Below are positions 57,723 through 59,900 of a DNA stretch of 64,000 nucleotides, piece by piece. Below the pieces are notes generated by a model. That model saw nothing but the letters and a program-made list of their open reading frames with translations, did no database searches and had not been told where the DNA came from. Source of the DNA: an uncultured Collinsella sp. (GTDB taxonomy: Bacteria > Actinomycetota > Coriobacteriia > Coriobacteriales > Coriobacteriaceae); assembly GCA_949288855.1 (NCBI GenBank), contig CASELS010000001.1, positions 1 to 64,000 of the forward strand, written 5' to 3'. Every line of letters starts with the position of its first letter. Within the stretch, counting starts at the first letter, position 1. Made by a program: the position numbers and the translations under genes.

Positions 57723-57751
57723 TTGACTCCATCAAACTAAAGCGCGATACT
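57723..57751 (+). promoter_or_regulatory. Promoter of the cstA leader
   Basis: -35 TTGACT (57723-57728) and -10 GATACT (57746-57751) with a 17-base spacer. The expected start is near 57758, about 60 bases before the leader peptide. Confidence 0.75.
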
Positions 57752-57816
57752 GCCCTTCGTTGGAACGAGACGTGTCGGCGTGGAGCCGGCACCCGATACC
57801 AAAAGGATCGCGCAAC

Positions 57817-57861
57817 ATGAACGTACGTCACCTATCTATCGCTATTGAGATTATTGCCTAG
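57817..57861 (+). CDS. cstA leader peptide (candidate)
   Basis: MNVRHLSIAIEIIA, 14 codons plus TAG, with AAAAGGA eight bases before the ATG. It has four Ile and one Leu codons, three Ile codons close together near the end (ATT GAG ATT ATT). It ends 16 bases before hairpin 1 of the attenuator. Layout is that of amino-acid biosynthesis leader peptides; here it would make cstA expression respond to isoleucine (or translation rate). No homologue is known to me. Confidence 0.65.
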   Translation: MNVRHLSIAIEIIA

Positions 57862-57877
57862 CGCGGATAGGTGCCAT

Positions 57878-57953
57878 ACCGGTCCGCGCTACAGAGGCGG
57901 ACCGGTCCTTTGCGGGGCCGTCGACCGAATGCGACGGCCCCGCGTTTTGTTTG
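57878..57953 (+). terminator. Transcription attenuator of cstA
   Basis: Four pairing segments are seen. 1:2 is ACCGGTCCGC (57878) with GCGGACCGGT (57897). 3:4 is the terminator GCGGGGCCGTCG (57912) with CGACGGCCCCGC (57932), followed by GTTTTGTTTG. An alternative 2:3 antiterminator, CGGTCC with GGGCCG around TTTGCG, is possible. Together with the leader peptide this is a classical attenuator. Confidence 0.8.
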
Positions 57954-57984
57954 CGTTGCGATGGTTCTGAAGGGGGCATTTCGT

Positions 57985-59823
57985 ATGAACGGTTTGTTGG
58001 TTGTGCTTGCCGCGGCGGTGGTGCTCGCCGTCGGCTATCTGCTCTACGGGCGTTGGCTCGCCCGTACCTGGGGTGTGGATGCCGAGGCGCTCACCCCTGC
58101 GCGCCGCATGGAGGACGGGAAGAACTTCTCGCCCGCGTCGTGCTTCACGGTGTTCTCGCATCAGTTCAGCTCCATCTGCGGCGCGGGCCCTGTCACGGGC
58201 ACCATCGCCGCCATGATGTTTGGCTGGCTGCCGGTGCTTCTGTGGGTGCTCGTGGGCGGCATCTTCTTTGGCGCGGTGCACGACTTCGGTGCGCTGTACG
58301 CGAGCGTGAAGAACAACGGCAAGTCCCTCGCCCAGCTTATCGAGAAGTACATCGGTCGCACCGGCCGCAAGCTCTTCTTGCTCTTCAGCTGGCTTTTCAC
58401 CATCATCGTGATCGCTGCTTTTGTCGATATGGTTGCGGGCACCTTCATGACGGTGACTGACGCCTCGGGTGCCGTCGACACGGCCGCCTCGTACTTTGGC
58501 GGTACGGCGGGTACCATCTCGATCCTCTTCACGTTTGTTGCCATTGCCTTTGGCTGGGTGTGCCGCCGTTTCAACCTCACCGGCTGGCGTGAGCTTGCGG
58601 TGGGCGTCGTGCTCTTTGTGGCCATGTTTGCCGTCGGCATGCAGTTCCCGGTGTACCTCGACAAGATGGGCTGGTTTGCGGTCATCACGGTGTACCTGCT
58701 CTTTGCGGCGGCCATGCCCATCCAGGTGCTCAAGCAGCCGCGTGACTACCTCACGAGCATCATGATGCTCGTCATGATCGGTTGCGCCGTGGTGGGCATC
58801 TTTGTGCTCGCGCTCGGTGGCAATGCCGAGATGACTGCCCCGATGGTCGCCGATTTTGGCGCGCTCGCCGAGGGCGGAAGCTACGTGTTCCCGCTGCTGT
58901 TTGTATCCGTCGCCTGCGGTGCGCTCTCGGGCTTCCACAGCCTCGTCTCCACCAACACCTCCTCCAAGCAGGTGGAGAAGGAGCAGGACATGGTCGTGGT
59001 GGGTTACGGCGCTATGGTGCTCGAGTCCTTTGTGGGCGTGCTCGCCATCGTGTTTGCCGCCATCATGTTCACGACCATGAATACCTCCGGTGCGGGCGGT
59101 GCGCTGGTGGGCACCCCCTTCCAGATCTTCAGCCAGGGCGTTGCCCGCGGCATGACCGCCTTTGGAGTTGATTCGACGCTCGCTACGGTCTTCATGACCA
59201 TGTGCGTCTCCGCGCTCGCCCTTACCTCGGTTGATGCCGTCGCACGTATCGGCCGCCTCTCCTTCCAAGAGTTCTTTGCCAAGAGCAATGACGCGCTCGA
59301 GGATGAGCAGGCTGAGCTCGCTGGTGTGCCTAAGGTTCTCTCCAACACCTGGGTCGCCACCGTGCTCACGCTCGTCCTCGGCCTCGCCCTCGCCTTTGGC
59401 GGCTACACCAACATCTGGCCGCTGTTTGGCGCTTCCAACCAGCTTCTTGGCGGTATGACCATGATCACGCTCGCGGTCTTCTGCAAGTGCACCGGTCGCC
59501 GCGGCTTCATGCTCTACGTGCCCGTGGTCTTTCTGCTGTGCTCCACGTTCACGTCGCTCGTGCAGTCCACGCTCGGCTGCATCACCGCGCTTCAGACGAG
59601 CGGCGTTGCCGTTATCGCAACGTCCGGCCTGCAGCTCGTGTTTGCGATTCTGCTGATGGTCCTTGGCGTGATTGTGGCGTACAACTGCCTGAAGGAGTTC
59701 TTCACCAAGGGGGCGGGCTCGCTTCCCGACGAGGAGCCCGAGTGGACCGAGCTCGGTCGCGCTCATTGCGCGCGCCCCGACGCAGCGGACGCTCCCGCAG
59801 AGGGTGCCAGCGCCCGCGCGTAG
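57985..59823 (+). CDS. cstA: Carbon starvation protein A family transporter
   Basis: 612 residues with about 16 membrane helices. CstA features are NFSPASCFTVFSHQFSSICGAGPVTGTIAAMMFGWLPVLLW in the first third and YTNIWPLFGASNQLLGGMTMITL in the last. It takes up peptides or pyruvate during carbon limitation. Start 57985 has AGGGGGC upstream; the longer frame starts inside the attenuator hairpin. It is monocistronic, bounded by terminators at 57912 and 59863, and has the leader described above. Confidence 0.95.
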   Translation: MNGLLVVLAAAVVLAVGYLLYGRWLARTWGVDAEALTPARRMEDGKNFSPASCFTVFSHQFSSICGAGPVTGTIAAMMFGWLPVLLWVLVGGIFFGAVHDFGALYASVKNNGKSLAQLIEKYIGRTGRKLFLLFSWLFTIIVIAAFVDMVAGTFMTVTDASGAVDTAASYFGGTAGTISILFTFVAIAFGWVCRRFNLTGWRELAVGVVLFVAMFAVGMQFPVYLDKMGWFAVITVYLLFAAAMPIQVLKQPRDYLTSIMMLVMIGCAVVGIFVLALGGNAEMTAPMVADFGALAEGGSYVFPLLFVSVACGALSGFHSLVSTNTSSKQVEKEQDMVVVGYGAMVLESFVGVLAIVFAAIMFTTMNTSGAGGALVGTPFQIFSQGVARGMTAFGVDSTLATVFMTMCVSALALTSVDAVARIGRLSFQEFFAKSNDALEDEQAELAGVPKVLSNTWVATVLTLVLGLALAFGGYTNIWPLFGASNQLLGGMTMITLAVFCKCTGRRGFMLYVPVVFLLCSTFTSLVQSTLGCITALQTSGVAVIATSGLQLVFAILLMVLGVIVAYNCLKEFFTKGAGSLPDEEPEWTELGRAHCARPDAADAPAEGASARA

Positions 59824-59862
59824 CGCTTGACGTACAGCCTTTCCTCTCTAGAACGAGGTTGA

Positions 59863-59900
59863 GAACGGGCTCCGGCGATACGACCGGAGCCCGTTCTTTG
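59863..59900 (+). terminator. Rho-independent terminator of cstA
   Basis: GAACGGGCTCCGG, loop CGATACGA, CCGGAGCCCGTTC, then TTTG. Perfect 13-bp stem. Confidence 0.92.

Follow-up and report, generated by a model that had tools for sequence, protein, structure and literature searches.

The enterobacterial his attenuator is built on two alternative sets of RNA pairings, A:B, C:D and E:F versus B:C and D:E. Leader peptides rich in codons for branched-chain amino acids have been described for biosynthetic genes in other bacteria, including the ilvBNC attenuator of Corynebacterium glutamicum, with the leader MTIIRLVVVTARRLP and three hairpins (PMC11857589), and, in Staphylococcus aureus, an ilv attenuator that is rich in Leu (PMC5794164). 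For Actinobacteria, both leader-peptide attenuation and translational T-boxes that sense Ile-tRNA upstream of ileS have been reported (Seliverstov et al. 2005, PMC1262725); the text of that study mentions neither Collinsella, Atopobium nor cstA. The literature searched contained no account of attenuation for cstA or for Collinsella, although Vitreschak et al. 2008, which was outside the scope of the search, may list one.

Here, we describe a leader located upstream of cstA in a 64,000-nucleotide stretch of Collinsella DNA, referred to as the window. The leader is very probably a ribosome-mediated transcription attenuator, which, as judged from comparative sequence data, would couple cstA to the charging of tRNA-Ile and probably also of the CUA-reading tRNA-Leu.

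Organization of the cstA Leader Region

The promoter, the ribosome binding site, the 14-codon Ile-rich leader and the U-rich tail that the initial annotation had recognized ahead of cstA were all found in place (table 1). The terminator hairpin spans positions 57912-57943 and is accompanied by TTTTGTTT. Since cstA is followed by a terminator of its own, it represents a single-gene unit. The leader RNA folded with a z-score of -5.3 relative to dinucleotide shuffles, and when the 351-nt region was shuffled 3000 times, only 8 of the shuffled sequences contained an ATG-initiated ORF of 8 to 24 codons with at least 4 Ile codons.

Table 1. Features identified at the cstA leader locus, with positions in the window.
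Feature	Position	Strand	Evidence
Sigma-70-type promoter, TTGACT-17-GATACT	57723..57751 (TTGACT 57723-57728; GATACT 57746-57751)	+	Sequence reading
5' UTR hairpin GTGTCGGC/GCCGGCAC, upstream of the leader ORF	57772..57792	+	Sequence reading
Ribosome binding site of the leader ORF, AAAAGGA	57801..57807	+	Sequence reading
Leader ORF, 14 codons, MNVRHLSIAIEIIA and stop; Leu CTA at codon 6, Ile at codons 8, 10, 12 and 13	57817..57861 (ATG 57817 to TAG)	+	Sequence and relatives
Arm A CACCTATC, within the leader ORF	57829..57836	+	Pairs with arm B, swap test z = -5.1
Arm B GCGCGGATAGGTG, starting at the stop codon	57861..57873	+	Pairs with A or C
Arm C ACCGGTCCGCGC	57878..57889	+	Pairs with B (z = -7.5) or D (z = -5.9)
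Arm D GCGGACCGGT	57897..57906	+	Pairs with C or E
Arm E GCGGGGCCGTCG, 5' arm of the terminator	57912..57923	+	Terminator call, swap test, covariation
Arm F CGACGGCCCCGC and U-rich tail, intrinsic terminator	57932..57952	+	E:F swap test z = -11.2, covariation
Ribosome binding site of cstA, AAGGGGG	57970..57976	+	Sequence reading
cstA, 612 aa, ATG at 57985	57985..59823	+	Pfam PF02554 CstA, E = 5.7e-140
Terminator downstream of cstA	59861..59898	+	Terminator call

Of the 37 dereplicated relatives, 34 had the promoter element TTGAC at a distance of 71 to 109 nt upstream of their leader ATG. The promoter pattern with a TAAAG spacer occurred once in the genome from which the window was taken. The spacer motif CTAAAG was considered as an operator and rejected; it was unique in this genome, yet missing from several relatives. 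A stable hairpin of about -12 to -27 kcal/mol was present between the promoter and the ribosome binding site in every relative, with a variable sequence, and may possibly have a role in pausing or RNA stability.

Conservation and Codon Content of the Leader

A family-wide search identified cstA in 64 of 67 Coriobacteriaceae genomes (65 copies in total), and the leader was present upstream of all 65 copies. The initial annotation had named a lack of conservation of the Ile codons between species as an observation that would speak against attenuation. Each of the Coriobacteriaceae cstA leaders was found to contain an ORF of 11 to 16 codons with 2 to 6 Ile codons, in agreement with the prediction. 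The encoded peptides, which included MNVRHLSIAIEIIA, MFTHQLNIISVVII, MRTDQLAIISEIIS, MHAYLLISGEIIS and MSMSRHELLTIIEII, varied between species in their N-terminal residues and number of codons, as did the surrounding sequence, while the Ile codons were retained. Alignment gaps within the leader ORF came in multiples of three.

In the 37 dereplicated leaders, 150 of 466 codons (32%) encoded Ile, compared to 5.0% in the genes of the window (P = 5e-77). The choice of Ile codon also differed, with 100 ATT and 50 ATC codons in the leaders, whereas ATC was four times commoner than ATT in the genes. The Leu codon CTA was as conserved as the Ile codons, an addition to the initial annotation: it was present in 37 of 37 leaders and accounted for 43 of their 56 Leu codons, but for only 1.0% of the Leu codons in the window genes. 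CTA was retained irrespective of whether the leader ended with TAG, TGA or TAA, and its conservation is therefore not simply explained by pairing with the stop codon.

Six Arms with Alternative Pairings

The leader contains six arms, A to F, in which the pairings A:B, C:D and E:F (the terminator) compete with B:C and D:E (the antiterminator). The pairings were examined with a swap test, in which native arm pairs were set against arms exchanged between species, by duplex energy and in 2000 permutations. The z-scores for A:B, B:C, C:D and E:F (table 1) were each matched in 0 of 2000 permutations, in a comparison from which the effect of relatedness is not fully removed. No signal was obtained for the control pairs A:C, B:D, C:E, B:E and A:E. 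A z-score of -5.0 was obtained for A:D, which is explained by arm A being complementary to B, while D, like B, is complementary to C.

With energies of -11 to -19 kcal/mol, the D:E helix was stable in all sequences, and so close to invariant within the cstA set that the swap test was not informative (z = -0.7). When diverged members with a changed arm E were included, with arms delimited by hand, D:E had a z-score of -2.9 (24 of 10000 permutations), and again no signal was seen for the C:E control. An example is the symporter leader at locus L182, in which arm D GGCAGCUUUGG pairs with arm E CCCGGGGCUGC. Changes on both sides of the helix were observed for 13 of 19 base pairs in C:D and E:F and for 6 of 8 base pairs in B:C (0 of 500 shuffles). 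Four of the five helices thus covary across species, and D:E joins them once the diverged members are added. RNAalifold gave no result for the A:B region alone because the register of arm A shifts between species, and the per-sequence swap test was used instead.

With native pairs outperforming swapped arms, the data indicate two mutually exclusive states, namely A:B, C:D and E:F for termination, and B:C and D:E for read-through. All five pairings that characterize a his-type layout with six arms scored above the swapped controls. The 1:2 hairpin in the initial annotation corresponds to A:B, formed by the leader ORF and the bases after its stop codon, and the 3:4 terminator corresponds to E:F. 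The proposed antiterminator was recovered, but the four-arm scheme with a single 2:3 pairing had to be replaced by one with six arms, since arms C and D intervene and the antiterminator consists of B:C plus D:E. The layout is hence his-like rather than trp-like. Sequence analysis shows the component parts of the cstA leader and the fact that they are conserved, together with covariation among the arms and a bias in codon use.

Ribosome Position and Predicted Folding

The influence of the ribosome was modeled by folding each leader to the end of arm E with the ribosome masked from -18 to +12 relative to the A-site, a single assumed width to which all of the following numbers refer. When the A-site held the first Ile codon, D:E was favored over C:D in 28 of 37 leaders, and not in the other 9. 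When it held the stop codon, C:D was favored in 35 of 37 leaders, and B:C in none. For the window leader, the outcome was unambiguous, and the folding predicted 13.6 expected pairs in A:B and 8.9 in C:D in the absence of a ribosome, 12.9 in B:C and 7.1 in D:E with a stalled ribosome, and 10.5 in C:D with the ribosome at the stop codon.

When the mask was moved codon by codon along the window leader, antitermination was predicted for A-site codons 2 to 11, which include Leu-6, Ile-8 and Ile-10, and termination from codon 12, so that the last two Ile codons fall outside the predicted control window. Across species, the permissive A-site positions ranged from about -10 to -4 codons from the stop. 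This range takes in the CTA codon, which most leaders have at -9 or -8, as well as the first pair of Ile codons, located between -7 and -5. The most conserved Ile codon was the one at -2 from the stop (57853-57855 in the window), which was present in 36 of 37 leaders; a stall at this position was predicted to terminate.

The following features by which a leader-peptide attenuator may be recognized were identified at the locus: a short ORF with a start codon, a ribosome binding site, enrichment in codons for one amino acid and conservation across species; an intrinsic terminator between the leader ORF and the gene; and an exclusive antiterminator chosen by the position of the ribosome, as indicated by covariation and folding. 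The helix covariation and the masked-ribosome folding support the suggestion in the initial annotation of a leader-peptide attenuator that would respond to Ile-tRNA.

Distribution of the Element and Its Downstream Genes

A covariance model of the leader, R1, was built from 37 dereplicated sequences, including that of the window. It matched every cstA-bearing Coriobacteriaceae genome at full length. In the genome of the window, the single match was at cstA (E = 9e-23, with the window sequence being one of the 37 used to build the model). In a sample of 396 genomes from the phylum, 17 genomes had matches at E <= 1e-4, all of which belonged to Coriobacteriales, and full-length copies were also identified in Coriobacteriales outside Coriobacteriaceae.

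Six-arm elements were also found upstream of other genes. These were, in other Coriobacteriales, a gene for a PanE/ApbA-like 2-dehydropantoate reductase (L173, leader MLSIRAIKIIGIIEII), a 2-oxopent-4-enoate-hydratase-like gene (L174, L178 and L179) and genes for TIGR00883-family metabolite/H+ symporters (L176, L177, L180, L182, L185 and L186). An Ile-containing leader was present at each of these ten loci. At L179, the hydratase-like gene was located about 4 kb upstream of cstA. Leu-rich versions of the leader were observed at L081 (MLIGLLDMLVLLIS, located at cstA) and L175 (MLIGLLDILVLVIS, at a contig end), which suggests an apparent change of the sensed amino acid.

The leader was absent from a distant CstA homolog (about 42% identity) in another family of Coriobacteriales and from most cstA genes in Olsenella and Thermophilibacter. 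Four close cstA homologs from the latter two genera (L078, L082, L086 and L091) lacked the leader and shared a different conserved upstream stretch, gtgaacggtatgtttc ... ggttagcggtcggaaactatgt, which is perhaps a DNA operator. The ilvDBNC operon of the family had no match to R1, and no similar ORF or structure was seen by eye. The genome of the window contained ilvC, which was missing from most genomes of one genus, g3; the leader has therefore been kept both with and without Ile synthesis.

The CstA Subfamily and Its T-Boxes in Lachnospiraceae

Both peptides and pyruvate have been named as substrates of CstA, mostly based on work in Proteobacteria. CstA of E. coli and Salmonella takes up pyruvate (PMC9504724). 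The window protein matched the broader Pfam CstA family (PF02554) and scored 176.8 bits against the model for the pyruvate/proton symporter CstA (NCBIfam NF011590), for which 1188 bits are required. No solved structure matched CstA in sequence.

The nearest CstA relatives outside Coriobacteriales belonged to Lachnospiraceae, with 54% identity in Falcatimonas and 51% in Roseburia porci, and in both of these a T-box was located upstream of cstA (RF00230, E = 2e-19). Further CstA homologs were obtained from a search of 299 Lachnospiraceae, and 31 loci were inspected, 30 from the search plus the Roseburia locus. The T-box core motif was present within 700 nt in 22 of the 31 loci, and all 13 of these 22 that were scanned matched the Rfam T-box model at E <= 6e-16. 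The T-boxes at L267 and L268 were missed at the Rfam gathering threshold and retrieved at 86 bits by an E-value search. The specifier codon in the Rfam alignments was AUC in 9 of 10 cases and CUC in 1 of 10; when read by eye at 20 loci, it was AUC (Ile) in 17 and CUC (Leu) in 3. T-box leaders with mostly AUC specifiers were seen in the cstA upstream regions L267, L268 and L285-L312.

In the literature searched, T-boxes at cstA in Lachnospiraceae were not found. A T-box has been listed upstream of cstA1 in Bacillus methanolicus, although the authors doubted that it regulates the gene (PMC4342826), and cstA is absent from the T-box survey by Wels et al. 2008.

Discussion

Based on these observations, we infer the switching of the leader, its kinetics and its physiological reason to be as follows. 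When tRNAs are charged, the ribosome would reach the stop codon and cover arm B, so that C:D forms and E is left free to pair with F and terminate transcription. Under a shortage of Ile (or Leu), it would stall at codon 6, 8 or 10, covering A and not B; B:C could then form, leaving D free to pair with E ahead of the synthesis of F, and RNA polymerase would read through into cstA. In the absence of a ribosome, A:B and C:D are favored in the window sequence, which would also lead to termination. Since E:F is stronger than D:E by about 13 kcal/mol on average, read-through must presumably be kinetic and set by the order of synthesis, and D:E would have to form and hold until F is made. The physiological reason would be a greater import of some compound that helps against a lack of branched-chain amino acids.

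Ile sensing by a conserved attenuator is well supported by the comparative data, and the conservation of CTA on a par with the Ile codons implies that Leu may be sensed too. That the leader instead senses mainly Leu via the rare CUA codon, with the Ile codons being secondary, is an unlikely reading. It draws on the presence of CTA in all leaders, where it dominates among the Leu codons and occupies the best predicted stall position, on the higher sensitivity conferred by CUA codons in the Salmonella leu attenuator (PMC1183508), on the Leu-rich cstA leader at L081 from another family, and on the few T-boxes with a CUC specifier. However, Ile is the commonest leader residue, the leaders of other genes at L173, L174, L178, L179, L182 and L185 contain Ile and lack CTA, and the large majority of the T-box specifiers are AUC.

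The readings that dispense with tRNA charging have much lower probability. Arrest by the nascent chain, with the leader peptide itself stalling the ribosome in response to a metabolite, would account for a peptide core, QLxII..II, that is recognizable across species, but is very improbable given that residues other than Ile and the CTA-encoded Leu vary, N-termini are unrelated, lengths differ by whole codons, and the leaders of other genes share only their richness in Ile. We consider it marginally less probable still that the terminator is constitutive or controlled by a protein, with the Ile-rich ORF serving only for general coupling of translation and transcription. The terminator is indeed strong and the end of the ORF is tied to arm B, but such a terminator needs neither six arms with five covarying alternative pairings nor an enrichment in Ile and a conserved rare codon. 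Many hairpins are expected in GC-rich DNA; however, the conservation, the covariation and the single significant match in the genome refute, for practical purposes, the idea that the likeness to an attenuator is due to chance, or that the hairpins are just the usual terminator of the acyltransferase gene upstream. Attenuation in response to Ile-tRNA, probably along with CUA-reading Leu-tRNA, hence remains the preferred explanation.

The occurrence of two unrelated RNA devices at one CstA subfamily ties this subfamily to Ile, and less often to Leu. The simplest reading is that it imports a compound able to relieve branched-chain amino acid shortage. This compound could be the amino acid, a peptide or the 2-oxo acid; the 2-oxo-acid reductase and the symporters behind the element may slightly favor organic acids. 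A broader scenario, which we regard as tentative and leaning somewhat to the doubtful side, is that an undescribed family of attenuators in Coriobacteriales governs a small regulon for branched-chain amino acid shortage, composed of CstA, metabolite/H+ symporters, a PanE-like 2-oxo-acid reductase and a 2-oxopentenoate-hydratase-like enzyme, that the CstA subfamily imports a source of Ile or Leu (the free amino acid, an Ile- or Leu-containing peptide, or the corresponding 2-oxo acid), and that Lachnospiraceae reached the same control independently via Ile T-boxes. That RNA devices reading Ile-tRNA are found at the same CstA subfamily in two phyla of gut bacteria suggests that its substrates belong to a class connected with branched-chain amino acids, an idea that the paired devices make directly testable.

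No T-box (RF00230) or riboswitch was matched by Rfam in the window leader, and none of the leader families in Rfam, including that of his, matched at E-values up to 5; the leader codons are for Ile and Leu, with no run of His codons. The T-boxes at the nearest cstA relatives in Lachnospiraceae have the same output, Ile-tRNA-dependent read-through, but bind uncharged tRNA directly. With the attenuators of C. glutamicum ilvBNC and S. aureus ilv, the element shares a short leader peptide rich in branched-chain amino acids and a choice between terminator and antiterminator set by ribosome stalling, whereas those systems control biosynthesis and the Coriobacteriaceae element would control cstA. The likeness in layout to the general architecture of the his attenuator is in the six arms, the leader ORF over arm A, the stop codon at arm B, the alternating pairings and the intrinsic terminator. 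The cstA leader differs from the his attenuator in containing Ile (and Leu CUA) rather than His codons, and in its probable control of a transporter gene in Coriobacteriales (Actinomycetota) rather than a biosynthetic operon. It also extends leader-peptide attenuation to Coriobacteriales, for which we found no description, and to a transporter gene, and represents, outside the current Rfam families, a known mechanism, ribosome-mediated attenuation, in a new form and in a new place.
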